IMG/VR virus record: IMGVR_UViG_3300021376_000451
Span: 1 to 20,393 of that record
Direction: 5' to 3' (one strand)
Source of the DNA: a virus
DNA length: 20,393 nucleotides
Under the pieces are notes generated by a model. That model had not been told where the DNA came from. It ran no database searches and worked only from the letters and a program-made list of their open reading frames with translations. Positions 1 through 13,980 of this stretch are shown in pieces; within the stretch, counting starts at the first letter, position 1; each line of letters begins with the position of its first letter. A program made the position numbers and the translations under genes.

Positions 1-647
1 CATATAGATTCTGTTTGAACAACCGTATCTTCTGTAAACTGTGTTGAAATAGTACCGTTAAAGTTATTGAAAATAAATTCTATATCTATATCTGGACTAC
101 TAATTATATCATTTGGAACATTAACATATACAGCTTCACTTGTAAATTTTTTTACAGAAGGATCTACTGATTCGTCTAGTAGATAATTGAAAGTATCAAC
201 GACTATATCTGGAAGATTTCTATCAAGTGCATTATCTAAAAGTTCTAAAGTGCCTGTCATATTAAACTGTGTATCACCATAAACAGGTGTTTTGGAATTA
301 TCGTTATTAAGTATGTATACCGCAAATTTTAAAAATTGAGGTTTTAAGACAGCAAATGTACTGGCAGGTATTGACACAGTAGCAAGTCCCTTTGTAGAAG
401 AATGTACAACTGATGACGAATAAATGCTTTGATTATTCTCGTCTAAAATAAGAAAAACAATATTTTTATTACTTACATCAATTCTTTTTTGCTCTGCGTT
501 TTTTATATCTAATAAAAGTTCATTTTTTAAACCTTTATAAATTTTAAATCTACGTTGATACACTGTTCTATACTCCACTGAATGAGTAGCCAAATCAACG
601 GTTAAGTTTATTCGATTTGGATATAAATAACTTGAAATTTTTTGCAT
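1..647 (-). CDS. Probable virion structural protein, C-terminus cut by window edge
   Basis: The minus strand is open from an ATG at 647 to the left edge (I read all codons; no stop), giving at least 215 residues with the C-terminus missing. The N-terminus has YPNRI near residue 9, then a stretch rich in short beta-like segments (VYQRRFKIYKG, KNAEQKRIDV). This recalls a conserved virion structural family in marine T4-like phages, whose members begin with a YPN motif and a KxYKG motif; that match is from memory, not a search. There are no signal peptide or membrane segments. The start codon lies 23 bases from the start of the divergent plus-strand gene, and a late-promoter-like element (666-673) lies just upstream. 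A role in the particle is an inference; the coding call itself is firm. Confidence 0.75.
   Translation of the reverse strand, partial: MQKISSYLYPNRINLTVDLATHSVEYRTVYQRRFKIYKGLKNELLLDIKNAEQKRIDVSNKNIVFLILDENNQSIYSSSVVHSSTKGLATVSIPASTFAVLKPQFLKFAVYILNNDNSKTPVYGDTQFNMTGTLELLDNALDRNLPDIVVDTFNYLLDESVDPSVKKFTSEAVYVNVPNDIISSPDIDIEFIFNNFNGTISTQFTEDTVVQTESI
622..629 (+). promoter_or_regulatory. T4-type late promoter (TATAAATA)
   Basis: The plus strand reads TATAAATA, an exact match to the T4 late promoter -10 element recognised by the gp55 sigma factor with gp33/gp45. It would start transcription near 635 and serve the plus-strand gene at 671 with a leader of about 35 bases. The element lies inside the first codons of the divergent minus-strand gene. 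No TTGACA-like -35 box is needed for late promoters. Confidence 0.6.
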
Positions 648-665
648 GGCTATTTGGCTTTACAG

Positions 666-673
666 TATTTATG
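666..673 (-). promoter_or_regulatory. Late-promoter-like element (CATAAATA)
   Basis: Read on the minus strand this is CATAAATA, one mismatch from the T4 late consensus. It would start transcription near 660 toward the structural gene whose ATG is at 647. It overlaps the start codon of the opposing plus-strand gene, so the two candidate transcripts would share a complementary 5' segment of about 25 bases. A single octamer match in A+T-rich DNA is weak evidence; the position supports it. Confidence 0.4.
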
Positions 674-1051
674 GTGAACTTAAGACAAAATATACAATCT
701 CAGCTTCCCTACATAACAGTTATCAACTATGGCGAAAATGAATATGTTGGTATTATAATTAATCAAGATCAATTTGTAACAAGTTTTTTTGACTTAAATG
801 TGTTGAGATCACCAGAAGAAAAAACAAGGCTATTAGAGGTTGGCGAAATTTGGTGGTGGGAAAGTAATAGACAGATTCCTATCAATATATTTTGTAGAAA
901 AGAAGTAGAACCATTTAGATATGCAATAAAGACTTTTAACAGTAAGGACGTTCGCGTTGTATTGGGACCAACTGTAAATTTAATGAACCTAAGTTATAAA
1001 CGCATAAAAAGAAAACAAGTACAACTTATTAGACCGATGAAGAAAAATTAA
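671..1051 (+). CDS. Unknown late-type protein, 126 residues
   Basis: This is one of only two plus-strand genes in the window. The frame stays open upstream to a TTG at 617, but the late promoter at 622-629 would start transcription after that, so I take the ATG at 671 (MVNLRQNIQ). No Shine-Dalgarno is seen. The protein mixes beta-like segments (INYGENEYVGIIINQDQF) with a WWW cluster near residue 60 and a basic C-terminus (KRIKRKQ). I do not recognise a family. It runs convergently into the gene ending at 1061 with only nine bases between and no terminator hairpin. The divergent partner looks like a virion gene and the promoter looks late, so a structural or assembly role is a reasonable guess only. 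Confidence 0.65.
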   Translation: MVNLRQNIQSQLPYITVINYGENEYVGIIINQDQFVTSFFDLNVLRSPEEKTRLLEVGEIWWWESNRQIPINIFCRKEVEPFRYAIKTFNSKDVRVVLGPTVNLMNLSYKRIKRKQVQLIRPMKKN

Positions 1052-1060
1052 TTTTATAAA

Positions 1061-1639
1061 CTATAAAAAATCATAACTTACGGTTTCACAAATCAAGTTC
1101 ATTTGCACAACTATAGCAACAGCATAAGCTGTAGCGTGACTTTTCTTAAAGTAATAATCATTGTTATCCGGCTTAATCCAAACTTCATTCATAATCGTCG
1201 TCCAGTCCTTCCCAATCAGATAGCGTTTCGCAGGGCGGATCATGGCGAGGACCGCAGCTAATTGTTCCACGGAAGTCGGCTGGGTCTTGCGGATTATATC
1301 TCCATGCCCGTTCAAATGAAATAACAGATTCAGAAAATCGTCTTGCAATAAAAGGTCCCATAGTGGCTCCTGGTCTAGTAAAGAATTAAGATGTTGTTCA
1401 CTCTTTATTCCCTTGTACATACTTACATTTAAGAGATCAATCTTAAAATAACCTCTTTGTTCTGCTTCTTTGTAATCAACTGTAGATATTTGTGTCAATG
1501 GATTGTGTGGGATAGGTTGAATATAAATTCCTGTATTATGACTTGTTAAAGTGCCTTTATCTAATCTGCTAGCTGTTATGTACTTTATTTTATCTAAAAT
1601 ATCATCTCTATTTACAAAATCAATGTCTATATCTGGCAT
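1061..1639 (-). CDS. Miniature DnaE-like (C-family DNA polymerase palm) protein
   Basis: This 192-residue protein carries, in the correct order, the active-site landmarks of bacterial DNA polymerase III alpha. MPDIDIDF is at residues 1-8 (the first two catalytic Asp). HNTGIYI near 34 matches the DnaE HAAGVVI region. YFKIDLLNVS near 64-73 matches the KFDFLGL motif with the third catalytic Asp. SVEQLAAVLAMIRPAKR near 123-139 matches the FEDLIALxALYRPGP motif. FKKSHATAYAVA near 164-175 matches the FNKSHAAAYAL motif. DnaE is usually over 1,000 residues; here the PHP, most finger/thumb, beta-binding and OB parts are absent. The protein starts exactly at the Met of the conserved SMPDIDID block. It overlaps the upstream gene by one base (TGATG), closing a translationally coupled set. 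Whether it polymerises DNA, binds nucleotide or regulates is unknown. The family call rests on motif order; the gene is intact, not a decayed fragment. Confidence 0.75.
   Translation of the reverse strand: MPDIDIDFVNRDDILDKIKYITASRLDKGTLTSHNTGIYIQPIPHNPLTQISTVDYKEAEQRGYFKIDLLNVSMYKGIKSEQHLNSLLDQEPLWDLLLQDDFLNLLFHLNGHGDIIRKTQPTSVEQLAAVLAMIRPAKRYLIGKDWTTIMNEVWIKPDNNDYYFKKSHATAYAVAIVVQMNLICETVSYDFL
1201..1310. other. G+C-rich patch inside the mini-DnaE gene
   Basis: I counted 62 G or C in these 110 bases (56%), rising to 37 of 60 (62%) at 1231-1290, in a window that is otherwise about 30% G+C. It encodes the segment matching the DnaE ALYRPGP region and uses codons such as CGC, GCG, CTC and CCG that are rare in the neighbours. 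The reading frame continues through both borders. A recombination patch from a higher-G+C relative is the simplest reading; an assembly join is the alternative. Confidence 0.7.
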
Positions 1640-1821
1640 CAGTGTAAAACCTCAGATTGGAAAAGCAATAATGGAAGATTATTGTTTAGATAATTTGCAT
1701 ATTGATCTGCATCTTCAACTGTTGGAAATCCTGTTAATTTTACATATAAACTTTTATCTTCTTCAGATAGAATTATTTCCATATTTAAATTTATTTCATT
1801 CTGTTCATGTTGAATATTCAT
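1639..1821 (-). CDS. Small unknown protein, 60 residues
   Basis: The frame is open upstream to 1893, but the ATG at 1821 overlaps the stop of the preceding gene as ATGA, the arrangement used throughout this window, so I choose MNIQHEQNEI as the start. The product is acidic and looks like a small alpha/beta protein: an amphipathic beta-like segment (SLYVKLTGF) followed by a helix (TVEDADQYANYLNN) and a hydrophobic LPLLLF segment. The next gene, the mini-DnaE, begins within its stop codon. I recognise no family. Tight coupling on both sides suggests that it works with the mini-DnaE or the zinc-finger protein, but that is only context. Confidence 0.55.
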   Translation of the reverse strand: MNIQHEQNEINLNMEIILSEEDKSLYVKLTGFPTVEDADQYANYLNNNLPLLLFQSEVLH

Positions 1822-2510
1822 AAATTTGCCTCCTGCACTATTTTTTTTACTAGATCCAAATCCCTTGTTTGTTTTTTGAATTTTCTTATCCAAACTGCAG
1901 GATCTATAATATTACTTATAGCAGAAAGCTGATCGTCTCTCATAGACGAAAGCAATTTTTTACCACTTGTACAGTTAAGTATGAGCCAAGGACTTACTTT
2001 TCCGTCTTTTATATTGTAAGATGCTCTATTAACACTTACGTATAAAAAGTAGTGGTTCCAAATGCTATTATTTTCATTTGCCCATGATTCCATATGATTT
2101 ATTGTACGTTCAAGTGCAGTTTCTACACTTTCAGTATGAATAAGTTCTATAACATATTTTTCGTATAGTGATTCTTTACACCAATGGTCAAGTTTTATTC
2201 CGCTTTTAATTACATATTCTATAAATTTATCTGGATATAAGGGAGAAACGTTATTTACAAAACTGCCAAATTTTACAAATGCATTATAGTATTGACTTTT
2301 TGCAAACTCATCGAATGTTTTATTTTCTTTAATATTTTGTGTCAGTTTATAAAATCTATTATAGGTTTCAAGTCCTAATACAGATGATTTATCATTTTTT
2401 GCAAAATGTCTTCTTTTTTGTTCGCACATATGAACAGCAAGAGTTTTTTCTTGAGTAAAGACACTATTACAATAAGGACAGTTGTATTTGGTCACTTGTA
2501 ATTCTAGCAT
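1818..2510 (-). CDS. Zinc-finger protein of unknown function, 230 residues
   Basis: The N-terminus holds a C2H2-like finger: C11-x2-C14, then H27 with C29 or H35 as the last ligand (YNCPYCNSVFTQ, then LAVHMCEQKRRH). The remaining 190 residues are mainly helical with conserved-looking Trp and Tyr (DHWCKESLYEKYVIELIH; SIWNHYFLYVSVNRASY) and match no family I can name. Similar finger-plus-helical proteins occur as conserved hypotheticals in marine T4-like phages, from memory. It follows the 158-residue gene after one base and couples by ATGA to the 60-residue gene. A nucleic-acid-binding or protein-contact role is suggested by the finger and by the downstream polymerase-like gene, but is not shown. 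Confidence 0.75.
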   Translation of the reverse strand: MLELQVTKYNCPYCNSVFTQEKTLAVHMCEQKRRHFAKNDKSSVLGLETYNRFYKLTQNIKENKTFDEFAKSQYYNAFVKFGSFVNNVSPLYPDKFIEYVIKSGIKLDHWCKESLYEKYVIELIHTESVETALERTINHMESWANENNSIWNHYFLYVSVNRASYNIKDGKVSPWLILNCTSGKKLLSSMRDDQLSAISNIIDPAVWIRKFKKQTRDLDLVKKIVQEANL

Positions 2511-2511
2511 T

Positions 2512-2988
2512 TTAAAATAATTTAGCTATTTCATTATCACTGTATCCATGGCTAGCAGCAATTAATTTTAATTCGGATTTTGTGTATAGTTTTGACAGTA
2601 ACTCTATTTCATCATCTTTTTTCTCTGGGTATATGCTAGATAAAAATTTGATTACTTTATTTAGGCCTGATTCTTTTTTCTTAAATCCAATCCACTCATG
2701 ATAAAATAATTGTTTACTTTGATGTGAACACATTGTTAATAATAACCACATTAATTTAGGATGACCTTGTAAGTCATTCCAATGTTTGTTAAAATATTCA
2801 TTTACTGATAACAAGTAGTGTTCTTGTATTTCTCTATCATTGGATTTTACGTTGCTGATATATCTGTTTAAAATAAAAAATTCATTCCGCAGCAATTTTT
2901 TATTTGCATCGTCTAGGCTGTCCCATAGGTCTTTTACGCCTAAATCAACCGCTGCTATCTTTTCTTTAATTTTAATTTCTTCACTCAT
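2512..2988 (-). CDS. Conserved-looking hypothetical helical protein, 158 residues
   Basis: The start ATG overlaps the stop of the preceding gene as ATGA at 2988-2985. The protein appears almost wholly alpha-helical, with FFILNRYISN near residue 37, a hydrophobic segment KLMWLLLTMCSHQ near 78-90 that is too short and polar-flanked for a clear membrane span, and a C-terminal pair of helices ending SDNEIAKLF. The FxxNRxxS pattern and the size faintly recall the small clamp-loader subunit gp62 of T4-like phages, but I cannot align it convincingly and give no symbol. It sits in the five-gene coupled set with the zinc-finger and mini-DnaE proteins. Confidence 0.7.
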   Translation of the reverse strand: MSEEIKIKEKIAAVDLGVKDLWDSLDDANKKLLRNEFFILNRYISNVKSNDREIQEHYLLSVNEYFNKHWNDLQGHPKLMWLLLTMCSHQSKQLFYHEWIGFKKKESGLNKVIKFLSSIYPEKKDDEIELLSKLYTKSELKLIAASHGYSDNEIAKLF

Positions 2989-3297: not shown

Positions 3298-3984
3298 TTA
3301 CCAAATCCTATGTGTAGTGCTCATTTCGAGCATCTTTTCTTTGTTGTTGTAGAAAATTTTATTTATTGATGCACAAGCTGGTTGTGTTGTTTGTAAGTTT
3401 ATAATGTCTTTATTGCACTGCATATCTGCAGGAACAAAGCCGTTAACCGAGATATATTTTATTAGTTTTTTAGCCGCTTTTGGTTTAATGATATATGCCT
3501 GTAAGCCCATTGCATACTCACTTTTAACATTATATTTTTTCCTTGAATCTGGACTGTTATAATCAATTATTGTAAAATTATTATCTAATTTTTTTAAATG
3601 CTGATTCTCATACGCTTGACTAAATTTGTTGTAAGGGTCTAGTAATAAAAACTCGTCAAAGAGACTTTCTATATTACAAGGTATAGGACGCAGTAAAATT
3701 CCATCATGTTCAAAAATACATATAATTTCATTATTTTCAACTGAGTGCTTCCAAAGTGTGTAATGACTAGCTAGGCATCCTAAGACTCCTAAACGTTTCT
3801 TTTTCATCTTAGCAGGACCTTGTTTTATTTTCAATGTGTCAGACAAGTATGAACTTATTATGTTTCCATATATTCCATCAAATTTTTCAATTATAAGTCC
3901 ATGTTTTAATCCAGATTTTACGCAATCATCTGCCAATGCTTCGCTAGTTTCTATATTTTTTAATCTTATTACGAAGGCTTTCAT
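3298..3984 (-). CDS. Glycosyltransferase, family 25-like
   Basis: I choose the ATG at 3984 because it overlaps the upstream stop as ATGA; a GTG at 3993 is also in frame. The 228-residue protein opens with MKAFVIRLKN, as in LPS beta-1,4-galactosyltransferase-like (GT25) proteins. It then has RLGVLGCLASHYTLWKH (64-80), the GT25 'GxxGCxxSHxxxW' block, and ICIFEHDGILL (88-98) where the family normally has a metal-binding acidic cluster such as LEDD. The C-terminal part keeps GLQAYIIKPKAAKKLI, also typical. The EHDG variant leaves one acidic residue on each side of a His, so metal use may be changed. It is the last gene of the carbohydrate set beginning at 5583. The acceptor is unknown. Confidence 0.8.
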   Translation of the reverse strand: MKAFVIRLKNIETSEALADDCVKSGLKHGLIIEKFDGIYGNIISSYLSDTLKIKQGPAKMKKKRLGVLGCLASHYTLWKHSVENNEIICIFEHDGILLRPIPCNIESLFDEFLLLDPYNKFSQAYENQHLKKLDNNFTIIDYNSPDSRKKYNVKSEYAMGLQAYIIKPKAAKKLIKYISVNGFVPADMQCNKDIINLQTTQPACASINKIFYNNKEKMLEMSTTHRIW

Positions 3985-4676
3985 ATTTGCCACGGTAATG
4001 GAACGTGACGTTTTCCGCCAAGATGTCTTACATAACCTTTTTCATTACTTGTTATTGCTCCGCAAAATCCTAAGTCTTTATAATAAATTGAAAGATCTAT
4101 TTCTCCCATTATTTCCAACCCGTTTTTGATTATTTTAACTTTTAATTCGTTATATGGATGTAACTGCATGCAGTCTTTAGTTCTTCGTAGCCCAGGATTA
4201 AGTGTAAATCCACACCAAACTTTTTTATGTTCTTGATTCATTTTATAAAAATAATCATTGCTTATTGGGTATCTTACATTTTTTAATATAGCATGATTTT
4301 TAGTATCGTTGTGTGCCCTCAGCCATACTGTAAATATTTTATCATCAGTGTTTAATATTTCAAAACTTTTTTCTATAAATCCACTACTGTAAAATTCCCA
4401 GTCTTCTTCACAATGAAAGATATAATCTGTGTTTACCTTGGCATAGGCTAAGTCAATTGATTTTATTTGGCCTAAATTAGTTGAATTCTCAATAATTTCT
4501 AATTGACAAGAAATTAAAGATTTAACCTTTGAAAAATTCTGAGGCTTGCCGCTGTCTTCAGTGATAATAACTTTTTTAATAGGATAGGTATTCGTTTTAA
4601 AAAAAGATTCAACAGTTCTTTCTAATAAGTCTGTTCTACCACATGAAGTTATTACTACTGTGACTTCATTTATCAT
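3981..4676 (-). CDS. Glycosyltransferase, family 2-like (GT-A)
   Basis: This 231-residue protein has the GT2 nucleotide-sugar fold signature: a leading strand and helix (EVTVVITSCGRTDLLERTVE, residues 4-23), VIITEDSG (36-43), STNLGQIKSIDLAY (65-78) and the metal-site region YIFHCEEDWEFY (85-96), in which EEDW replaces the usual DxD. The second half, normally the acceptor part, holds WCGFTLNPGLRR and GEIDLSIYYKDLGF. The protein is short and has no membrane segments, so it is a soluble enzyme probably acting on a lipid-linked or free glycan. It follows the methyltransferase after six bases and couples to the GT25 gene by ATGA. Confidence 0.85.
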   Translation of the reverse strand: MINEVTVVITSCGRTDLLERTVESFFKTNTYPIKKVIITEDSGKPQNFSKVKSLISCQLEIIENSTNLGQIKSIDLAYAKVNTDYIFHCEEDWEFYSSGFIEKSFEILNTDDKIFTVWLRAHNDTKNHAILKNVRYPISNDYFYKMNQEHKKVWCGFTLNPGLRRTKDCMQLHPYNELKVKIIKNGLEIMGEIDLSIYYKDLGFCGAITSNEKGYVRHLGGKRHVPLPWQI

Positions 4677-4682
4677 TTATTT

Positions 4683-5240
4683 TTAAACCTTTTCATTTGA
4701 TAACCAGTAAACGCCTATCCTAGGTACTCCGTTGGATTTTTTTCCAATGAAATAATTTTTAATATAAGCACCCCAAGTGTTAATTATTTCTTCATTGGTC
4801 CAATCAGGTTTAACATGTTTTTCGTAAGGATTACCTTCAAATTCCTCTTGAGGCATGTATGTTATTGGAATACTTATAATAGTATTTGTACCATATTCTA
4901 ATGTTTTAATGATAAGGTTTTCAGCTTCTAATTTAGTCATATGTTCAAGAACGTCTCCTGCAATTATTAAATCAAATTTTCCTAGATTGTTCCAATCAGT
5001 AGTTCTTATATCATAATTGTATATTTTATCGTAAAGAGATTGTAATTGATATTTCTCTATGTATGGCTTCCATATCTCTATACCTATTAATTCAAAATCA
5101 TTGCGCAGGCCAGCATTTTTTAAAAGAATTGAATAGGTTCCTATACCTGTTCCTATATCTAATATTCTATGAATATCTTGTTTTTTATTTTTAATCCATT
5201 CTACTATTTCGTTTTTTCCTAAATTGCTGCTAACGGGCAT
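4683..5240 (-). CDS. Class I SAM-dependent methyltransferase
   Basis: The 185-residue protein has the class I methyltransferase core: motif I ILDIGTGIGTYS (26-37), an acidic end of strand 2 in ELIGIEIWKPY (50-60), YNYDIRTTDW as the adenine-side motif, and FDLIIAGDVLEHM as motif IV with the DVLEH common in small-molecule and sugar methyltransferases. It overlaps the cupin gene by 11 bases and is followed by two glycosyltransferases. That context makes methylation of a sugar or glycan, or of a precursor, more likely than DNA methylation. No DPPY/NPPY DNA amino-methylase motif is present. Confidence 0.85.
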   Translation of the reverse strand: MPVSSNLGKNEIVEWIKNKKQDIHRILDIGTGIGTYSILLKNAGLRNDFELIGIEIWKPYIEKYQLQSLYDKIYNYDIRTTDWNNLGKFDLIIAGDVLEHMTKLEAENLIIKTLEYGTNTIISIPITYMPQEEFEGNPYEKHVKPDWTNEEIINTWGAYIKNYFIGKKSNGVPRIGVYWLSNEKV

Positions 5241-5583
5241 TTTGAAAATATCCTACAGTTTCTCTTTCAATGTCTTCATGATCAAACTGAGCCCAATATA
5301 GTTCAAAAGCAATGGTATCTTCTAATGCTTCAAATTGATGATATTCTCCAGGTGCTACCTTTGTGTAATTTCCTTCATTCAAAACAGTTTCATCTATTAA
5401 ATCATAGTTGTTCTTCCAAACTCTTACTAATAAACTTCCAGACTCTACAAAAAATCCGTTCCATTTGTGTTTATGTTTATGTTTGCTACAAACACCACCT
5501 TTTTTTATTTCAATACGATGAAATTCTAAAACTGCATTTGCTTCAATTAATTCTGTATTTCCCCAAACTTTTCCTGAAATCAT
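5230..5583 (-). CDS. Cupin-fold protein, sugar-isomerase/epimerase-like
   Basis: This single-domain cupin of 117 residues has the first cupin motif GGVCSKHKHKHKWNGFFVESG (about residues 29-49), giving His 35, 37 and 39 and Glu 47 as candidate metal ligands, and a second motif VAPGEYHQFEAL (76-87) with His 82. The size and motifs resemble mannose-6-phosphate isomerase-type and other small sugar cupins that accompany glycan genes. An HKHKHK run at the metal site is unusual in giving three alternating His. It is the first gene of the 5583-3298 carbohydrate set and lies downstream of the promoter at 6137-6164 through the 168-residue gene. The substrate is unknown. Confidence 0.75.
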   Translation of the reverse strand: MISGKVWGNTELIEANAVLEFHRIEIKKGGVCSKHKHKHKWNGFFVESGSLLVRVWKNNYDLIDETVLNEGNYTKVAPGEYHQFEALEDTIAFELYWAQFDHEDIERETVGYFQNAR

Positions 5584-5592
5584 TTTTATTCT

Positions 5593-6099
5593 CTATAGTA
5601 TCTTACTTAAATCTATCATTTCACTTTGCCTACTTACTTCTTTAATAAAATAAGCACATGACGGTTTATGATTTTGTGTTAATGGTACTGCAAGTAGTTG
5701 ATTGTTTTTCATTTTTGGAAAATACCATTTTACATCGTTATAAAAATTTATAATTTCAATTTTTTTGAACTCTATTTTAAAACTACTTAAAGGATTAAAA
5801 CAAAAAGCTTCAAATCCTCTATCATTTAAACTAGTAAGTGGTAAAATTTCTATATCACAGGCACTACCACTATCTCCTACAGCAATACTCCAATCAATTG
5901 GCATTGTAACTTCATAGTCATCAATTTTTAATACCATCGCTGGACTGTTAAAACTTTCTAAAAAAATTAAAGGTATAAAATAAAAATCGGGATTTTGGCT
6001 ATCACTATTATCAAGCACTGCAAATCTTAAATCTTCATTTATTTCGTCAGGTAAATTATTTAAATCAAATGATATGTTGTCTAGAGTAAGTATTTGCAT
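5593..6099 (-). CDS. Hypothetical protein, 168 residues
   Basis: First gene after the strong promoter at 6137-6164, with a leader of about 30 bases and no clear Shine-Dalgarno. The protein is acidic at the N-terminus (MQILTLDNISFDLNNLPDEI) and mainly beta-rich. Its centre reads PIDWSIAVGDSGSACDIEIL, followed by LNDRGFEAFCFNPLSSF, and the C-terminal part contains VKWYFPKMKNNQLLAVPL. It looks like a conserved protein of marine T4-like phages found beside uvsW, from memory, with no known function. Position under a host-type promoter suggests early or middle expression. It is followed after nine bases by the cupin gene and is probably co-transcribed with it. Confidence 0.7.
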   Translation of the reverse strand: MQILTLDNISFDLNNLPDEINEDLRFAVLDNSDSQNPDFYFIPLIFLESFNSPAMVLKIDDYEVTMPIDWSIAVGDSGSACDIEILPLTSLNDRGFEAFCFNPLSSFKIEFKKIEIINFYNDVKWYFPKMKNNQLLAVPLTQNHKPSCAYFIKEVSRQSEMIDLSKIL

Positions 6100-6136
6100 A
6101 ATTTTATTAAAAATATAATTGTCTTTTTTATTTCCT

Positions 6137-6164
6137 ATTATAGCATTATTATAAAAATTGTCAA
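6137..6164 (-). promoter_or_regulatory. Consensus sigma-70 promoter (TTGACA-N16-TATAAT)
   Basis: On the minus strand the -35 box at 6164-6159 is TTGACA and the -10 box at 6142-6137 is TATAAT, both perfect, with a 16-base spacer. The start would be near 6130, 30 bases ahead of the ATG at 6099. It lies in the only gap (66 bases) between uvsW and the next gene. It is the strongest host-type promoter visible in the window and should drive the 168-residue gene, cupin, methyltransferase and glycosyltransferases. Confidence 0.8.
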
Positions 6165-6165
6165 C

Positions 6166-7626
6166 CTAATTCCAAACTACTTTTTCATGTGTAAATGGAT
6201 ACTTTGCTTCTTTGTAGAATTTTTTGCGCTGTGTAAGATGTTTTCTAGCAAATTTGCATGTGCTGGTTAAATCCCAGATTTGTACAAAGTCTTTATCTTC
6301 TGCACGTCTAATTCCTCGTCCAATAGATTGTATAACCCTAACAAAGCTTTTTCCGGGTTCCAAAAGAACCAAATTAAAAATCCTAGGGATATTAATACCC
6401 ACAGCGGCCACACCGTAAGTCGCCACAATAATCTTGTTATCAGTAATTGCAACTTCATCATATTCATCTTTCCTATCTTTAGTTTTTACATCACCAGATA
6501 TGAACACACTGTTTTCAATCTTATCTGTTATTAATTTTCCAGTATCAATTCTATTAATTAGCACTAAAGTGTTTCCAGACTCACTTATGTTTTTAATTAA
6601 GTTACTGATGTATAACATCCTACTTGTGTTAGTTACAAGGTATTTAAGTTCTTCAGCATAAACTTTAAATTCTGGTATATCAACTAGTTGAATTACATTT
6701 ACGTGACAATTTGACAATACTCCAGATTCCTGTAAGGAATGTGCAGAAACTTGATGCATGAGTGGACCAATGGTAGCAAAAATAGCTTGATTTTCATAAT
6801 CTTCTTTTGGTATAGTGCCAGTAAGTCCCCATCTGATAGCAGCATTACAAAAATTTTGAGTAAGTAAATTTTTTAGAACAGTAGCTTTAGCCATATGTAC
6901 TTCATCTACAATAACTGCTATTACATCCTGTAGAAATTCTGTTAATGTTACTATCTCAGTTTCAAATTCTTTACTTTTTTTATCTAATATGTTTAAACTT
7001 TGCCATGTACAGATAGTATGTGTCTTGTTTAATTCCTTGCGATCTCCATAATACACTCCTACATCTAAACCACAATTTATAAAATCTTCCTCAGTCTGCT
7101 CTACTAGACTTTTGTTAGGCACGATAGTAATTGTTCTACCATATTTTTCACATAATTTACTTAAGGTAGCTGTAATAATTGTTTTTCCAAAACCTGTAGC
7201 AATTTCTTGTAAACATTGAGGATTTTCTAAAAATTTATTTACTACCTGTACTTGATCATCTCTTAAAACTATAGGTTGTCCTTCAAATCTATGACCTTTA
7301 GGCCATTTTTTATAACTCCAATAATCAGCAGAAATCTCTGTAAAATGTAAATTTAATGATTTTCTTCTATCTTCAATCTCTGAAATGGATATATTATTTT
7401 GTTCTAAAACTTCTAATATCTTAGGCAATTGATGAATATAACCATTACCGCCAAGTCCAAAAAGTGTTACTGAACCGTCCCATCTACCTAACCGGTATGC
7501 AGGACGATATCTTGCAGTTGGATCTACATATTTAAAAGTATTGCTTAATTTTCTTCTGACTTCAACAGCAAGCCCTTCTAATTTTAAATTAACTTCGTCT
7601 TTTATAATCAATTTACATGATGCCAT
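6166..7626 (-). CDS. uvsW: UvsW-type recombination helicase
   Basis: Superfamily 2 DNA/RNA helicase equivalent to T4 UvsW, which unwinds R-loops and branched DNA, regresses stalled forks and moves the phage from origin-dependent to recombination-dependent replication. From the ATG at 7626 the product has 486 residues (T4 UvsW is about 500). The N-terminal domain (1-115) has YRLGRWDGSVTLFG. Then come the Q/Ia region, Walker A ATGFGKT (143-149), DEVH (241-244), motif III LTGT (268-271) and motif VI QSIGRGIRR (433-441). A GTG at 7635 is an alternative start; ATG is preferred. It overlaps the upstream gene by 14 bases and is probably transcribed from the promoter at 8773-8801. All helicase motifs are intact. 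Confidence 0.95.
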   Translation of the reverse strand: MASCKLIIKDEVNLKLEGLAVEVRRKLSNTFKYVDPTARYRPAYRLGRWDGSVTLFGLGGNGYIHQLPKILEVLEQNNISISEIEDRRKSLNLHFTEISADYWSYKKWPKGHRFEGQPIVLRDDQVQVVNKFLENPQCLQEIATGFGKTIITATLSKLCEKYGRTITIVPNKSLVEQTEEDFINCGLDVGVYYGDRKELNKTHTICTWQSLNILDKKSKEFETEIVTLTEFLQDVIAVIVDEVHMAKATVLKNLLTQNFCNAAIRWGLTGTIPKEDYENQAIFATIGPLMHQVSAHSLQESGVLSNCHVNVIQLVDIPEFKVYAEELKYLVTNTSRMLYISNLIKNISESGNTLVLINRIDTGKLITDKIENSVFISGDVKTKDRKDEYDEVAITDNKIIVATYGVAAVGINIPRIFNLVLLEPGKSFVRVIQSIGRGIRRAEDKDFVQIWDLTSTCKFARKHLTQRKKFYKEAKYPFTHEKVVWN

Positions 7627-8767
7627 CTGTATCACTTATTATGGGTTGCGCTTGATTGTAATATATAATTAAATCTACAAAATCTGCGTATACGCTTAAC
7701 TTATTAGATCTTAAGTTATTGGTATAGCTTACAATGCTTTTAGGACTCCAGTCAGTCTTTAAGACAAATTTTGGTAAATGGTTGTAATCTAAAATCACCG
7801 AATCAGTGTTAACGTCAAGGAAACTGTTAAGTTTATGTTCAGAAACAAACATATTAAAATTTTTGCCAGTATTATTATTCAATCTAAAGTACACGTTTAA
7901 CTTTTTTTTAAATTTTTCCATAGATTGATGAATTTCTAATAGATTTAGAAAAGTTTTTTCATGATTATGTTTATCTAAAACAAATAATATCGGAAATCTA
8001 TTTAAGTCTAACAACGACTGACAAATATCTGTTAGTTTATATTTTTCCGAACTTATCCAAATTCTTGGTTTTTTACGTGAGGCGATTAAAGATGTAAGAG
8101 AATTGTCTAAATTATAAAAATAGTCAAATTGAAATTTAATTCTTCTATCCATTATAAGTGTTTGATTCTCAAGCGAATTAGGTCCAATGTCTTTTTGTAA
8201 ATTTTCAAGTAACCACGTGTTTTGCTTATAATCGATAATATACTGATCTGAATTCTTAATGATATTATTGATTTGGTTGAAATAAGATAATAGAGTTTTT
8301 TCTATATTAAAATTGTATTTTTTTAAGCATTTAATTATATGATATAGATTAAGTTCGGTAAATGGCATTAATATGGTTTTTCCTTCATATACAACATCAT
8401 CAATTTTTTGATTTTTTATACACTCTACAATAGTTGATCTTATTCCCTTGTGAAATGCAAATTCTATTTTAAAAAAAGTAGCATTTTTTGGATCTAAATA
8501 AATTTTTCTAATTTTTTCAATAATTCTAAAAGGTTTTGACCATAATACTTGTGTAAGTATTTGTTCAATACTATTATCTTCAGTTAAAAGATTATTTTTA
8601 TTTTCTTTGAGTATTTTTACTAGAAGTTGACCTTGGTTTTCCGTTAAAAAATTACCATTTTCAAGTTGATTTACTAGGCTTGCAAGAATCTTTTTATCAC
8701 GTAGATTTACAGAGTTCAAACCATTTGCATAAAATATATCTAATAAAAATTTGTCTACAGTTTTCAT
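7613..8767 (-). CDS. Unknown 384-residue protein coupled to uvsW
   Basis: The gene starts at the ATG at 8767, only five bases after a TATAAT box, and overlaps uvsW by 14 bases. The protein is Lys/Asn/Ile-rich. It has a helical N-terminal third (FLLDIFYANGLNSVNLRDKK, QGQLLVKILKENKNNLL) and a C-terminal part with alternating strands and helices (RFPILFVLDKHNHEKTFLNL, VILDYNHLPKF, SVYADFVDLIIYY) that suggests a Rossmann-like fold. No Walker A, nuclease or polymerase motif is visible. I recall unknown proteins next to uvsW in marine T4-like phages. Coupled expression suggests a role in repair or replication, but this is inference from position. Confidence 0.75.
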   Translation of the reverse strand: MKTVDKFLLDIFYANGLNSVNLRDKKILASLVNQLENGNFLTENQGQLLVKILKENKNNLLTEDNSIEQILTQVLWSKPFRIIEKIRKIYLDPKNATFFKIEFAFHKGIRSTIVECIKNQKIDDVVYEGKTILMPFTELNLYHIIKCLKKYNFNIEKTLLSYFNQINNIIKNSDQYIIDYKQNTWLLENLQKDIGPNSLENQTLIMDRRIKFQFDYFYNLDNSLTSLIASRKKPRIWISSEKYKLTDICQSLLDLNRFPILFVLDKHNHEKTFLNLLEIHQSMEKFKKKLNVYFRLNNNTGKNFNMFVSEHKLNSFLDVNTDSVILDYNHLPKFVLKTDWSPKSIVSYTNNLRSNKLSVYADFVDLIIYYNQAQPIISDTDGIM

Positions 8768-8772
8768 ATTTT

Positions 8773-8801
8773 ATTATACCAATAAAGAAACAAAAAGTCA
8801 A
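8773..8801 (-). promoter_or_regulatory. Sigma-70 promoter (TTGACT-N17-TATAAT) of the uvsW operon
   Basis: The -35 box at 8801-8796 is TTGACT (one mismatch) and the -10 box at 8778-8773 is TATAAT, with an ideal 17-base spacer. The -35 box contains the TGA stop of the upstream glycosyltransferase-like gene. Only five bases separate the -10 box from the ATG at 8767, so a transcript starting at that A would be leaderless. Confidence 0.7.
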
Positions 8802-9652
8802 GAAAGTTGAAAAATCCTACCAAAAGGAACTCCTGTTTCTAGTTCACCTACAGTCCATTCTGTATGGGTCAATTTTATTAACCAGTCTGATCTATCAGGT
8901 AATATAGGATTTTCTAAATTTTTAATATTTTTGATGCTTACTGGGTAAGCAAGGCTGTCACTGTCAGTTAAAACTGGAATTCCAGCTATTGCTGCTGTAA
9001 TGCCTGGATTACTGCAAGGGCTTACTACACAAAAGGATGATTTAAGGTCTACGCCAAGATTAAAATCATCATAAGTTTCAGGTATTTTTACCGGATTACT
9101 TATTTCGACCCCTAATTTTGTTAAAAAGGCGGTTGAGTTATAGTCTCTAGGGTGAGGTCGAAAAACTATTCTCCGATCAGTCACAGTTCGTATTTCATTA
9201 ACTAAGTTTGTAAGCCATATTTGAAATGGCTGTCTATGTTCCCATTGAAGACTTTTTGTATTTTGACCACAAATTAAAATATTTTCTCCTTTTTCCTGTC
9301 TTTTTCCAAGTATAATGCCTAATTTTTTAGGTCTGTCCCGATCAAATGATTCAACAGAATAAAAATTTCCTAAATTGTTAATATGATTTAACCCTAATCT
9401 CCATGTTATCCCTCTTTTTAAACCACCAACTTCAATTATTAACAATGGTTTGTTGATAATTTTAGCAGATTGCCAAATTTTTTTATTATTTTCCATTCTA
9501 CCATGCCATAAGACCGACCAGATTACATATACATCGGCAGATAAGTCATTGTTGACTACTGAAAATCCAATTTTTTTAAGACCAGCTTCTACTGCATCAA
9601 ATATTTTGCCGCTGTTTTGAGCTCCATTTTGTCTAAAAAGCGAAAATTGCAT
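8798..9652 (-). CDS. Capsule-synthesis/GT-B-like glycosyltransferase, paralog 1
   Basis: The 284-residue protein resembles capsule polysaccharide biosynthesis (KpsC/KpsS-type) transferases. Its C-terminal half has IVFRPHPRD (162-170), the RPHP motif of that group, then CSNPGITAAIAGIPVL (213-228), the small-residue loop and helix used for nucleotide-sugar binding in GT-B folds, and it ends SDWLIKLTHTEWTVGEL. The N-terminal half has WRLGLNHINNLGNF (84-97). The same layout recurs in the three genes at 10509, 11431 and 12521. It lacks membrane segments. It starts 35 bases from the divergent plus-strand transferase and ends inside the uvsW-operon promoter. Transfer of a sugar onto a surface glycan is the likely role; donor and acceptor are unknown. 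Confidence 0.7.
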   Translation of the reverse strand: MQFSLFRQNGAQNSGKIFDAVEAGLKKIGFSVVNNDLSADVYVIWSVLWHGRMENNKKIWQSAKIINKPLLIIEVGGLKRGITWRLGLNHINNLGNFYSVESFDRDRPKKLGIILGKRQEKGENILICGQNTKSLQWEHRQPFQIWLTNLVNEIRTVTDRRIVFRPHPRDYNSTAFLTKLGVEISNPVKIPETYDDFNLGVDLKSSFCVVSPCSNPGITAAIAGIPVLTDSDSLAYPVSIKNIKNLENPILPDRSDWLIKLTHTEWTVGELETGVPFGRIFQLS

Positions 9653-9658
9653 AAGATA

Positions 9659-9664
9659 TATAAT
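9659..9664 (+). promoter_or_regulatory. Possible -10 box of the plus-strand transferase
   Basis: TATAAT lies 23 bases before the ATG at 9688 in the 35-base divergent gap. No -35 box is found at the right distance and it is not a TATAAATA late element. In such A+T-rich DNA the match may be chance; it is listed because this isolated plus-strand gene needs its own promoter. Confidence 0.3.
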
Positions 9665-9687
9665 AAAACAATATTTACTGAGATAAG

Positions 9688-10524
9688 ATGCCTAATTATA
9701 GCGTTGTGACCACATTCAATTCTGATGGATACAATCAGTATGGAAAAAAATTCCTTCAAACCTTTTTAACTAATTGGCCTAGTGAGATAAATCTCAATTT
9801 ATATTTAGAAAACTGTAATATAAATGAAAATTCATCAAATTTAAAGGTATATGACCTTCATTCTGAATCTAAAGAGTTAGTAAAATTTAAAAATTTATGG
9901 AAAACTGTACCTAAAGCTAATGGCGACATCAGTAAGGACCCAATTCGAAGCAGAAGAAAAGACGCTAATAAAAAATTCAAATGGGACGCGGTGAGATTCA
10001 GTCATAAAGTTTATAGTATTTTTGCTTGTGCTAAGAAAAATACGTCAGATGTGCTGATATGGATGGATGCAGACATGATTTGTCATAGTCCTATCTGCAG
10101 AGAACAAATAGAACAGCTAATTCCTTTTGATAAAGATATTTGCTACCTTGGTAGAGATGGAAAATATCCAGAATGCGGTCTATATTCATTAAATCTCAAC
10201 TCTAAAGTAGTCTTAGATTTTCTTACTGAGTTTCAAAGAGTTTATGATGATGCTGAAAACGGAATTTTCAAACTTGATGAGTGGCACGATAGCTATGTGT
10301 TTGAATATGTGAGGAAAAAATTTAAATTAGACCTACTTAGTTGGGCAGAAAATTTACCAGACCTTAGACCTACCCAATATAATAGTAAAGGTGAAGGGCA
10401 TCCCCTTATTAACAGCAGATGGGGAGCATTTTTAGACCATTTAAAAGGTGATAGAAAAGAAATAGGCAAAAGTCGACCTTTAGATCTTAAAATAAAAAGA
10501 ACTGAAAGTTATTGGTCAACATAA
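9688..10524 (+). CDS. GT-A-type glycosyltransferase on the plus strand
   Basis: The 278-residue protein begins MPNYSVVTTFNSDGYNQYG and has the metal-binding DxD as WMDADM (125-130), preceded by SIFACAKKNTSDVLI as in GT8/GT34-like GT-A enzymes. It also has ECGLYSLNLNS near 160 and a conserved-looking WHDSYVFEYV near 200, typical of the acceptor side. A short Lys-rich N-terminal half loop (RSRRKDANKKFKW) precedes the catalytic strand. It is the only gene in the right-hand 19 kb on the plus strand and overlaps the convergent gene at 10509 by 16 bases without a terminator. The opposite orientation suggests separate insertion into the glycan cluster. The sugar and acceptor are unknown. Confidence 0.8.
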   Translation: MPNYSVVTTFNSDGYNQYGKKFLQTFLTNWPSEINLNLYLENCNINENSSNLKVYDLHSESKELVKFKNLWKTVPKANGDISKDPIRSRRKDANKKFKWDAVRFSHKVYSIFACAKKNTSDVLIWMDADMICHSPICREQIEQLIPFDKDICYLGRDGKYPECGLYSLNLNSKVVLDFLTEFQRVYDDAENGIFKLDEWHDSYVFEYVRKKFKLDLLSWAENLPDLRPTQYNSKGEGHPLINSRWGAFLDHLKGDRKEIGKSRPLDLKIKRTESYWST

Positions 10525-11438
10525 TCTTTCATAAATCTCCAAGCTTCACCAGATTTTAATTCATCAAAATTCCAGTGACACATGGAAATTTTCTCTAACC
10601 ATTTTGTTCTATCATGCAATATAGGATTTTCAATTTTCGACAAATTTAAGTTGCCTAAATCATAACTTTGACTATTTTTTGGATTAGGATCTGTAATAAA
10701 CACGGGTATTCCTTCTATTAGACTTGCGATACTAGGGCTACTATTATAAACTACTGTAGCCCATGAATCTTTTAAGTCATCTGCAATATTTTTATTGGTG
10801 CTTATACTAACATTTTGAAGATTTATCCGTAAAGTTTGTTTTGTTTGCTTATCTCCTGGATGAGGTCTAACAATAATAGGTCTATCTGTAAATTTTTTAA
10901 TTAAATTTATGGTTTCTCTTAACCAAGTTACAGAATCTAGCCCTTGCATACTCCATCCACCGTTACGCTGCATACAGACTAAGATGTGTTTACCGTTTTC
11001 TCTGTAATCTTTCACTTTAATTTTTAGATTTTGTGAAATTTTCTTCCAACGACTTGGATCTATATGTTTATCAAAATAAAATCCGGTGGTTGGAAAAATT
11101 CCATCAAAACTATATCTAAGATAGTGTTGGGGATTCTTTGTATCTAAGTATAAAAAAAGATTACTATCAACAATTAAAGTTTTTTTTCCGTTTTCTTTTT
11201 GAAAATCTAGTATTTTACGTCTAATTTGTAAATGAGGACTTAATTTACTATTTTCATGAACAAAACCTTGTATGACGGCTAGATCAGCTGGTATAAGATC
11301 TGATTTAAAATGTTTTATAGGTCTATCACCGTTAATCATTACACCCGTACAAAAATTTTCTAAAATTAACGGTTTTTCTTCATTAGAATTATTGGCAGGT
11401 ATACCTGCAAAATAAGCAGCGACTGTAAATTTACGCAT
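10509..11438 (-). CDS. Capsule-synthesis/GT-B-like glycosyltransferase, paralog 2
   Basis: The 309-residue protein is related to the gene at 8798. It shares PIIVRPHPGD (187-196), the GT-B-like YNSSPSIASLIEGIPVF (231-247), then a LENPILxDRxxWL-type block (here SKIENPILHDRTKWLEKI) and a closing WNFDELKSGEAW, which is HTEWTVGELETG in paralog 1. The N-terminal half contains DLAVIQGFV and GKKTLIVDSNLF, strand-loop elements of a first Rossmann-like domain. There are no membrane spans. It overlaps the upstream paralog by eight bases and converges on the plus-strand transferase. The intact RPHP motif makes this copy and paralog 1 the best candidates for active enzymes. Confidence 0.7.
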   Translation of the reverse strand: MRKFTVAAYFAGIPANNSNEEKPLILENFCTGVMINGDRPIKHFKSDLIPADLAVIQGFVHENSKLSPHLQIRRKILDFQKENGKKTLIVDSNLFLYLDTKNPQHYLRYSFDGIFPTTGFYFDKHIDPSRWKKISQNLKIKVKDYRENGKHILVCMQRNGGWSMQGLDSVTWLRETINLIKKFTDRPIIVRPHPGDKQTKQTLRINLQNVSISTNKNIADDLKDSWATVVYNSSPSIASLIEGIPVFITDPNPKNSQSYDLGNLNLSKIENPILHDRTKWLEKISMCHWNFDELKSGEAWRFMKDYVDQ

Positions 11439-12537
11439 TTATGTTTTTAATAAGTTTCACAGCAGTGCCATTCATTAATTCGTCAAATGTAAATTGACTA
11501 TAACTTAAAGTTGCTAACCATTGTGCTAAATTTGGTCTATACAAGTCATTTATTTGATGTATATAAGATCTACTCACTGTATTTGTAATATGTTTATCTA
11601 GTGTGATTACTGGAATTCCGTTCCATATTGATTCTGTAGCTGCATTAGAATTTATATTTACAACACAATAGTAATCTTCGTTTTTTAGCTCATAAAATAA
11701 TGATGTTCTAGTTTTTTTTGGTTTCTTTTCTCTAAACATTATGCGTTTATCAGTATACTTTCTAAGTTCAGATTCAATATCATATTTCCATGTCTTTAAG
11801 TTTATTTTAAAAATATCTGCACTAAATTGTCCCGGTTCTATAATTAGAATAATATGCCCAGATGTTCGCCATTGTGTAGGAAATATTTTAAACATTCCTA
11901 ATCTATCTACTGGAGGTAAAAAATTCCCAGAATTGTGGATATGATTTCTAACAACACGATGCCATTTTTTATTTGATTCTAAAAAATTTGTATAGCCGCT
12001 ATCTATGAACCAAAACAGCTTATTATTGCTGATTTTGTCAAGTATAATTTTTTCATTGCTTATTGTGTTCCTCATTAAACAGTCTGAATTATAATCTCTT
12101 ATTTTTGAACGTCTTACAAATTTTGCCGTAGGATCAATTTGATAACCTATTGTTTTTATAAAATTTTGTGTTTTGTGCTTTTTATATGCTTCAAATATAT
12201 TATTTTCTCCTAAATGTCTAAACATATAGTCTATATGTTTATGAAATAAGTTAAAAAAATATTCCCTACGTTCAAAAATTATTTGATCTACATTTTGACA
12301 ATACAGCTTCATGTCTGCATTTATAAATTTTAAAATTTTTGATTTTATTTTTTTTATTTCACCTTTTTTATCAAAATTTTCTTTTTTTTTGTTCTTGTTG
12401 TAAAAAAAACCTAATCTTTCTGCGTTGTGTGTAGTCAACGGCCAATCGAGATTGGGAAATGTGTAATATTTTAAATTACAACAATATAAGTCTGTCAGAA
12501 ATTTTACTATTTCTTTATCGTTAATCAGTAAATTCAT
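11431..12537 (-). CDS. Capsule-synthesis/GT-B-like protein, paralog 3 (divergent)
   Basis: At 368 residues this is the longest of the four copies, with an extra Lys-rich N-terminal part (about residues 40-170). Its C-terminal half follows the same plan: FIDSGYTNF (177-185), KWHRVVRNHIHNSGNF (191-206), YTDKRIMFREKKP (261-273) where RPHP is expected, INSNAATESIWNGIPV (295-310) and FTFDELMNGTAVKLI at the end. RPHP is replaced by REKKP, so catalysis may be altered or lost. It is closest to the gene at 12521, sharing the DSGY/DTGY, HRxVxN and QFTxxExxNGTA blocks, which suggests a local duplication. It overlaps the neighbours by 17 and 8 bases. Confidence 0.65.
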   Translation of the reverse strand: MNLLINDKEIVKFLTDLYCCNLKYYTFPNLDWPLTTHNAERLGFFYNKNKKKENFDKKGEIKKIKSKILKFINADMKLYCQNVDQIIFERREYFFNLFHKHIDYMFRHLGENNIFEAYKKHKTQNFIKTIGYQIDPTAKFVRRSKIRDYNSDCLMRNTISNEKIILDKISNNKLFWFIDSGYTNFLESNKKWHRVVRNHIHNSGNFLPPVDRLGMFKIFPTQWRTSGHIILIIEPGQFSADIFKINLKTWKYDIESELRKYTDKRIMFREKKPKKTRTSLFYELKNEDYYCVVNINSNAATESIWNGIPVITLDKHITNTVSRSYIHQINDLYRPNLAQWLATLSYSQFTFDELMNGTAVKLIKNINA

Positions 12538-13312
12538 TTAGAATTTTCCAAGCAGTGCCATTAGTAATTTCTTCAACTGTAAATTGACCATATGCTAAAT
12601 TTTGACACTGTTTAACAATTAAATTTTTTTCGGGTTTATAAGGATTCATTAAATTAGCAAGGTCAGTATTGGCTATAGGACTTGCTGCACAAGGCACAGA
12701 CACAAAGGCAGGAATTCCGTATAGAATGCTTTCTAAGGCAGCAATACTATTAAAGCAGACTGTGGCATATACTCCTGTATTAAATGCGTCATAAATCGAA
12801 TATTGATGATTTCTATATGCTCTACTACCTTTTATCCTTATTTCTATAGGCATATCTGTGTATTGTTTAATTTTATTTGTAGTTTCTTCAATCCATGTGT
12901 GCGAGTCAATGTTATAAAAATTACAAGCTTTAGGATTTGGTAATACTAATAATATTTTTTTACCATTTTTTTTCCAAGATGTCCATTCTAATCTAGGATC
13001 TTCTCCAACTAGTTTCGTCCATCTATCAGATGGTCTTTCTTTTATAACAGAATGCTGTAAATTGTTTTTGACGATTCTATGGTATATTTTTTTACCAGTA
13101 GGATTACCTAAAGAAGGAAAATTTCCTAAATATCCAGTGTCCACATAATAGTAATCGCGTTTAATTTTTTCACAATTTTTTATTGTTTTTTTCTTAGCAA
13201 TGCCTCTTACTGCGAGAGCTAAATTTTCATCATCTCTATTTTTACTAACAAGATTATTTGTAGATCTTGTGAATAGGGTTAAGATATGATTGTCATATTC
13301 ATTTTCATTCAT
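12521..13312 (-). CDS. Capsule-synthesis/GT-B-like protein, paralog 4 (divergent)
   Basis: I take the ATG at 13312 because it overlaps the upstream stop as ATGA; the longer frame begins only at a TTG at 13342. The 263-residue product has YVDTGYLGNF (56-65), KIYHRIVKNNLQHS (75-88), YTDMPIEIRIKGSR (151-164) in place of the RPHP motif, CFNSIAALESILYGIPAF (186-203) and a closing YGQFTVEEITNGTAWKIL. It is clearly related to the gene at 11431 and more distantly to those at 10509 and 8798. Loss of RPHP suggests changed chemistry or a partner role. It is coupled to the GT8-like gene, so the glycan genes from 14726 down to 10509 are probably one transcript. Confidence 0.65.
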   Translation of the reverse strand: MNENEYDNHILTLFTRSTNNLVSKNRDDENLALAVRGIAKKKTIKNCEKIKRDYYYVDTGYLGNFPSLGNPTGKKIYHRIVKNNLQHSVIKERPSDRWTKLVGEDPRLEWTSWKKNGKKILLVLPNPKACNFYNIDSHTWIEETTNKIKQYTDMPIEIRIKGSRAYRNHQYSIYDAFNTGVYATVCFNSIAALESILYGIPAFVSVPCAASPIANTDLANLMNPYKPEKNLIVKQCQNLAYGQFTVEEITNGTAWKILNEFTD

Positions 13313-13980
13313 TTCAACATTTCTCTTAAATATTTTTTCCAAATTTTATGATAATGACAGCGTCTATACTCTTTGAACCAAGGACCGCCTTCTGTGAAAT
13401 GTATTGCTGATGGTTGTCCATTTTCTTTTTCATTGTACCACCCTGCCAACCAATTCCATTCTGGTTGTAACTCCCCTATTTCTTCATCATTAAGCCATTG
13501 AAATCTATGTAAAAACTGTCCTGTTTGTGTATTAATTACGTCTGGCGTTAGATTTCTATTACTAGGATGGCTACAATTCCATAAAATGCACGAACTCCAA
13601 TTTTTCCTAGGATAAGAAAGTTGTCTGCATCCATCCATTTTATAACTTTCTTTAGGTGTGTATTCATGTTTTACAACCATCACTGCAAATTGGTTATTTG
13701 CTAAGTCAAACAATTTTTTAATATCTTGCAAAAAAATAAAATCACAATCAACAAATACAGCCCAACCTTTGTAATCTGTTAAGTAAGGCACTAAAAATCT
13801 TATAAATGTAAATTCAGTAGAACTTAATGGATCAATTGGTCTGCTGTAAATTCCTGCTTCTCTCAACTCTTTCTGTTTTAGGGCATAAACTTCGGTGTTT
13901 TTGTTATGTTTTACTATACTATATTCACATACCTGAAAAGCTATATCTTCTCTAGAATCATACCCTATAAAAACTTTCAT
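13309..13980 (-). CDS. Glycosyltransferase, family 8-like
   Basis: The 223-residue GT-A protein begins MKVFIGYDSREDIAFQVCEY and has the GT8-like block PIDPLSSTEFTFIRFLVPYL (48-67), then the metal-binding DCD in WAVFVDCDFIFLQDI (73-87). The C-terminal part has WNWLAGWY and the family's terminal HFTEGGPWF (193-201), whose His and Gly-Gly act in donor phosphate/metal binding in related enzymes. All key residues are present and the length is normal for the short phage and marine bacterial versions. It joins the genes on both sides by ATGA overlaps. It is probably soluble and adds a hexose to a glycan; the acceptor is unknown. Confidence 0.85.
   Translation of the reverse strand: MKVFIGYDSREDIAFQVCEYSIVKHNKNTEVYALKQKELREAGIYSRPIDPLSSTEFTFIRFLVPYLTDYKGWAVFVDCDFIFLQDIKKLFDLANNQFAVMVVKHEYTPKESYKMDGCRQLSYPRKNWSSCILWNCSHPSNRNLTPDVINTQTGQFLHRFQWLNDEEIGELQPEWNWLAGWYNEKENGQPSAIHFTEGGPWFKEYRRCHYHKIWKKYLREMLK

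Follow-up and report, generated by a model that had tools for sequence, protein, structure and literature searches.

A phage protein with DnaE catalytic motifs as the probable C-terminal half of a split minimal DNA polymerase III alpha

Why would a phage whose relatives carry a family B polymerase also encode a protein of 192 residues with the active-site motifs of bacterial DnaE? The ORF that raises this question lies on the minus strand at positions 1061-1639 of the window, by which we mean the whole stretch of viral DNA analysed here (20,393 bases), and its start coincides with the block MPDIDIDF. The original prediction saw in it the DnaE motifs in their proper order, and our analysis bears this out: PDIDIDF (residues 2-8), KIDLL (66-70), AMIRPAK (132-138) and FKKSHATAYA (164-173) follow one another as in DnaE, and a search of the PHROGs families assigns the protein to PHROG 11778, annotated 'DNA polymerase', with E=8e-66. 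In alignment, the E. coli DnaE equivalents are MPDFDVDF at 399, KFDFLGL at 553, ALFRPGP at 636 and NKSH at 757. From these motif positions, D3, D5 and D68 of the phage protein correspond to D401, D403 and D555 of E. coli DnaE, the established catalytic aspartates of that enzyme. We conclude that the protein is almost certainly one half of a split minimal DNA polymerase III alpha, and we refer to it as the C half. Its elements are as follows.

1061..1639, minus strand: protein of 192 aa, PHROG 11778, almost certainly the C-terminal half of a split minimal DNA polymerase III alpha
1616..1639, minus strand: MPDIDIDF, with catalytic Asp D3 and D5 (E. coli DnaE D401 and D403), invariant in 73 homologs
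1430..1444, minus strand: KIDLL, with K66 and the third catalytic Asp, D68 (E. coli K553 and D555), invariant in 73 homologs
1226..1237, minus strand: RPAK, residues 135-138, a fingers motif resembling DnaE ALFRPGP, with R135 and P136 equivalent to E. coli R639 and P640
1121..1150, minus strand: FKKSHATAYA, a fingers helix resembling DnaE FNKSHSAAYA (E. coli FNKSH helix at about 756-760)

The retention of all three catalytic aspartates, originally noticed in this single protein, extends throughout the family. Among 73 non-redundant homologs D3, D5, D7, H34, G37, K66, D68, R135, P136, K138, K165, K166 and H168 are invariant, and they hold down to about 45% identity; the metal-binding and neighbouring residues are also present in the distant RAS14 and Slicko01 C halves. 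At least 552 relatives could be confirmed in IMG/VR, and 63 records of the phage collection match the C half, 61 of them over at least 80% of its length. Cellular genomes yielded only seven matches, and the two that we inspected lie in ORFs of full-length DnaE size.

The DnaE-like motifs of the window protein are not a product of chance. Besides PHROG 11778, the protein weakly matches the full-length phage DnaE family PHROG 405 (E=2e-4), and by tblastn it matches an actinobacterial DnaE (a PRK05673 protein of 1178 aa) with E=6e-9 over residues 51-137. Moreover, when an HMM of the C half is used for searching, two real DnaE proteins (1.4e-5 and 0.003) outscore all 500 shuffled versions. The Pfam fingers model reaches a value of only 0.13 on the window protein, so that the C half would be missed by Pfam alone. 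The expected fold is also recovered: the AlphaFold2 model has a mean pLDDT of 92.3, bacterial Pol III alpha takes all of the first 15 places among its Foldseek matches in the PDB (with E 5.5e-4 for the best), and the first unrelated match appears only at E 2.3. Neither of the two outcomes named at the outset as fatal to the original prediction, a different fold or variable Asp residues, was observed.

What the protein lacks is equally clear. It has the features of a C-terminal Pol III alpha protein, with the Mg2+-binding Asp triad of DnaE and fingers that are reduced, and at 192 aa it falls short of the complete DnaE/PolC domain set, in which PHP, thumb, HhH, beta-binding and OB domains share one chain of more than 900 residues. 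E. coli DnaE residues 407-508 (the thumb region) and about 643-756 have no counterparts or only short ones in the C half. The alignment to E. coli DnaE also shows that the fingers stretch containing R709-R710 is absent, and dNTP binding must therefore be rebuilt or weak.

Where, then, is the rest of the palm? When seven related phage genomes were searched with the Pfam palm model PF07733, the gene that the model picked out in six of the seven was not that of the C half; it lies far from it and encodes about 170 aa. This gene product, PHROG 11127 (PF07733 match with E 4.7e-12), carries GVGRGSS, the GRGS triphosphate loop, whose G-R-G-S is invariant in 36 homologs. It is thus the triphosphate-binding part of the palm that the C half is without, encoded by a separate gene, and we call it the N half. 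The original prediction had allowed for a palm-only protein acting on its own; this idea has to be given up, since half of the palm is encoded elsewhere. Aligned with E. coli DnaE by hhalign, the N half reaches residue 393, and the C half begins at 399, so the two abut on DnaE without overlap. The C-termini of the N halves lie at an EFL/EFF motif or at most 2 residues from it, except in Slicko01. The N-half model has a pLDDT of 85, and its top 14 PDB matches by Foldseek are all Pol III alpha or PolC, but with a best E of only 0.014.

The 20,393-base window lacks the N half, which is present in the relatives G001, G003, G004, G005, G006, G008 and G010. By tblastn it is found in 60 of the 63 isolate records that have the C half, and in Slicko01, a complete phage of 141 kb, it is found by profile search (5.3e-15). 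The remaining two records are Klebsiella phage W12-3 (109 kb, unannotated) and Slickus01, which was outside the profile search. The N-half search also matched other records, some of them probably phages with an ordinary DnaE. Large IMG/VR contigs carry either one half or the two together, as fragments would. As to a fused form, none of 251 loci contained the two halves within the flanks that were fetched. Nor did a third DnaE fragment turn up: among ten related genomes the Pfam model DNA_pol3_finger found the C half only, as its sole match in nine (in RAS14 the value lay above the cut-off), and HhH (HhH_6) was found in none.

The phage context agrees with what was first proposed. The window encodes gp32, UvsX, UvsY, UvsW and terminase, which confirms a T4-like phage. 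A family B polymerase is present in all seven related genomes examined for it; its gene lies away from the split Pol III halves and is not within the window. A DnaQ-like exonuclease was considered as a proofreading partner and occurs in only four of eight genomes; it is therefore not a fixed part of the system. Several PolB proteins end in F..LF-type motifs. The tails of the C halves are variable, a gp43-like clamp peptide is not visible at most C-half ends, and a shared clamp-binding tail was accordingly rejected. The PA5oct-type C half of Pseudomonas phage Paride (positions 4983-5582 of its locus, L085) has an acidic tail ending in DPFKLFS, like the F..LF ends of PolB. This ending was seen in the Paride protein only, and it is possible that it serves as a clamp-binding peptide in the PA5oct-type lineage alone.

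Elsewhere in the window, a large sugar-related block (3298-14726) surrounds uvsW and includes a TIGR04440-like glycosyltransferase, a WbuC-like cupin, a methyltransferase and an HldE-like nucleotidyltransferase. The last of these is a 249-aa protein (13977-14726) in which a cupin-like domain, weakly matching cysteine dioxygenase, comes after an HldE-type nucleotidyltransferase domain. Relatives mostly lack the glycosyltransferase and methyltransferase genes that lie close to the C half. On the minus strand, four neighbouring ORFs (8798-9652, 10509-11438, 11431-12537 and 12521-13342) have similar ends of the form ~NP.L.DR..WL.K....W...EL..G, which suggests that the four ORFs in 8798-13342 are tandem divergent copies of one polysaccharide-type protein.

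Which genes accompany the two halves? Around the C half of the window we find the following.

617..1051, plus strand: convergent conserved ORF, PHROG 11637, delimiting the unit on its 3' side, present in 159 of 166 loci
1639..1893, minus strand: small ORF ending in a TGA that overlaps the C-half ATG (TGATG), with homologs in 46 of 166 loci
1818..2510, minus strand: C2H2 zinc-finger protein, PHROG 11058, a candidate partner, in 61 isolate records
2512..2988, minus strand: o158, PHROG 11758, proposed gp62-like clamp-loader small subunit

The PHROG 11637 ORF comes next after the C half. On the upstream side of the C half, the zinc-finger gene is found on the same strand in 157 of the 166 loci, and o158 in 150. 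The zinc-finger family has almost the same phyletic pattern as the C half, with parallel counts per genus, and in XacN1 and RAS14 its gene is kept though it no longer adjoins the C half. The coupling to a zinc-finger gene that was first inferred from this locus thus holds across the group, but in the window itself it is not direct, as the small ORF at 1639-1893 intervenes. The N half has a neighbour of its own. The clamp-loader gene gp44 lies 0.7-2.5 kb downstream of it on the same strand in 69 of 80 IMG/VR loci, and the 66 loci whose sequence extends for 2 kb or more on that side all have gp44. In nine of ten large genomes the N half is within about 4 kb of gp44; the distance in Slicko01 is about 8.5 kb. 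Between the N half and gp44, both relatives that were inspected carry a GroES-like (Cpn10) gene (893-1237 in L099 and 899-1243 in L098).

The identity of o158 was approached through intermediates. Compared directly, it has no significant match to T4 gp62, and an assignment to gp62 or RegA by direct match was rejected; support for gp62 comes from the bridging proteins of RAS14, XacN1 and Slicko01. The o158 profile matches these with 1.5e-22 (XacN1), 6e-22 (RAS14) and 4e-10 (Slicko01). The RAS14 homolog in turn matches the gp62 family PHROG 225 with 5.6e-8 and lies one gene after gp44, and the Slicko01 homolog matches it with 3e-4 and lies directly after gp44. On the strength of these bridging sequences and of gene order, we propose o158 as the small subunit of the clamp loader. 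In XacN1, RAS14 and Slicko01 the replication genes cluster within about 20 kb. The order in XacN1 and RAS14, over about 16 kb, is N half, three genes, gp44, one gene, the gp62-like gene, the zinc-finger gene, several genes and the C half; in Slicko01 it is gp44, the gp62-like gene, two genes and the C half. A simple reading would be one ancestral replisome locus, similar to the T4 genes 44-62-regA-43, that was later broken up. Since each half is encoded beside one clamp-loader subunit, the arrangement suggests that the split polymerase works at the replication fork.

How could such a reduced enzyme work? The C half, as the catalytic and fingers half, carries the three metal-binding Asp together with the Lys next to them and two fingers elements in reduced form; the N half, which ends just before the MPDIDIDF strand, has the rest of the palm with GRGS. 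We envisage that the two chains associate non-covalently into one rebuilt nucleotidyltransferase active site, in which the N half would bind the triphosphate and two metal ions would be held by the C half, and that the pair copies DNA. Since counterparts of E. coli 407-508 and about 643-756 are missing, weak and distributive synthesis is predicted, which makes partners at the clamp loader plausible. Without thumb, PHP, HhH, clamp-binding and OB parts, the enzyme would be distributive on its own and would have to be held at the fork by partners, for which the clamp loader and the zinc-finger protein are candidates; the clamp loader is named because each half gene adjoins one of its subunit genes. 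The likeliest task would be to make short stretches of DNA where the family B replicase performs poorly, for example in lagging-strand primer extension or gap filling. It is likely that the two chains form an active polymerase or nucleotidyltransferase. That they form a minimal C-family polymerase, engaged in template-directed synthesis at the replisome beside the family B replicase, is the reading we favour, as probable rather than assured. We are more tentative about a single replisome assembly of both halves, the zinc-finger protein and gp44/gp62, which would act as a clamp-loaded primer-extension or lagging-strand enzyme handing over to the family B replicase. If so, and this is equally conjectural, the roles would be the reverse of those in bacteria, where the C-family enzyme is the main replicase.

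Could the two halves instead form a DnaE-like fold that acts as some other nucleotidyltransferase of the replication module, for end-tailing, nucleotidylation or priming? The Pol-beta-like nucleotidyltransferase superfamily allows such roles, and an enzyme that has lost its thumb and most of its fingers, the R709-R710 stretch included, and has kept the Asp triad, the Lys and GRGS would suit them. We nevertheless consider this unlikely in view of the strong clamp-loader linkage and of the conserved RP and KKSH fingers elements, which in DnaE are part of the polymerase active site. The reduced fingers, the missing domains and a neighbourhood of structural replication factors would also fit an inactive subunit, structural or nucleotide-sensing, that keeps only the fold of DnaE. 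However, invariant metal-binding and neighbouring residues would be unexpected if catalysis were dispensable, which makes such a subunit improbable.

The homology to host DnaE raises the further thought that the protein inserts into host Pol III by palm mimicry, as a decoy or inhibitor of the host replicase. Such a decoy could do without an intact triad and without an N half that occurs alongside it, and the C-half gene has replication genes as its neighbours, so we give this idea very little weight. Finally, the short length of the protein, and the description of the other half in phage CBB as truncated (172 aa vs 1120 aa; PMC5259590), might point to a full-length DnaE that was once taken from a host and of which only a decaying remnant is left. 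Against this, 72 non-redundant homologs from phages of alpha- to gammaproteobacterial hosts have similar lengths and boundaries, their residues are under strong constraint, and HhH is missing from all ten genomes; a remnant is hardly credible.

Should the favoured two-chain polymerase prove active, its chains of together about 360 residues would form a C-family core of exceptionally small size and would offer a natural test of what catalysis requires of DnaE. It would also place a C-family and a family B polymerase in one replisome. Moreover, the gene linkage names concrete candidate partners, namely gp44, the gp62-like protein and the zinc-finger protein.

How does this system compare with known ones? 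In bacterial DnaE the palm motifs, the catalytic triad, the RP and FNKSH fingers motifs and the predicted fold are the same. The C half differs in having about one sixth of the length and no PHP, thumb, HhH, beta-binding or OB domain, and the phage chain is broken between DnaE residues 393 and 399. In cyanobacteria, Pol III alpha is likewise made from two gene products, with the break in the fingers by the FNKSH helix, and inteins rejoin the parts. The two systems share the use of two gene products for one Pol III alpha, whereas the phage break precedes MPDIDIDF, the proteins have clean ends, and they are too short to accommodate intein parts. The T4 replisome locus 45-44-62-regA-43 similarly has clamp-loader genes beside a polymerase gene; in our phages, however, the neighbours are the split Pol III halves, and the family B gene is elsewhere.

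The closest comparison is with group 2.2 jumbo phages, in which Iyer et al. 2021 (PMC7824862) reported, from sequence, a split minimal DNA polymerase III alpha; the passages available to us give the same split-enzyme reading as ours. Earlier reports each describe one Pol III alpha-like protein, that of CBB and gp316 of Atu_ph07 (PMC6102473), and beyond Iyer et al. 2021 we found no paper describing the C-half gene. The hope that the locus represents an undescribed system is therefore not supported, and PHROGs also lists the family as 'DNA polymerase'. As those passages describe it, the enzyme of group 2.2 consists, as here, of two proteins from distant genes with a family B polymerase alongside, the N part binding NTP and the C part binding Mg2+ and template. 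We see nothing that would exclude the window protein from this group; the window is a fragment without the N-half gene. Iyer et al. further put forward the minimal form as a model for the ancestral Pol III, which would become testable if the enzyme is active. What is new here, relative to the same passages, which mention neither, is the linkage of both halves to the clamp-loader genes and their co-occurrence with the zinc-finger gene.
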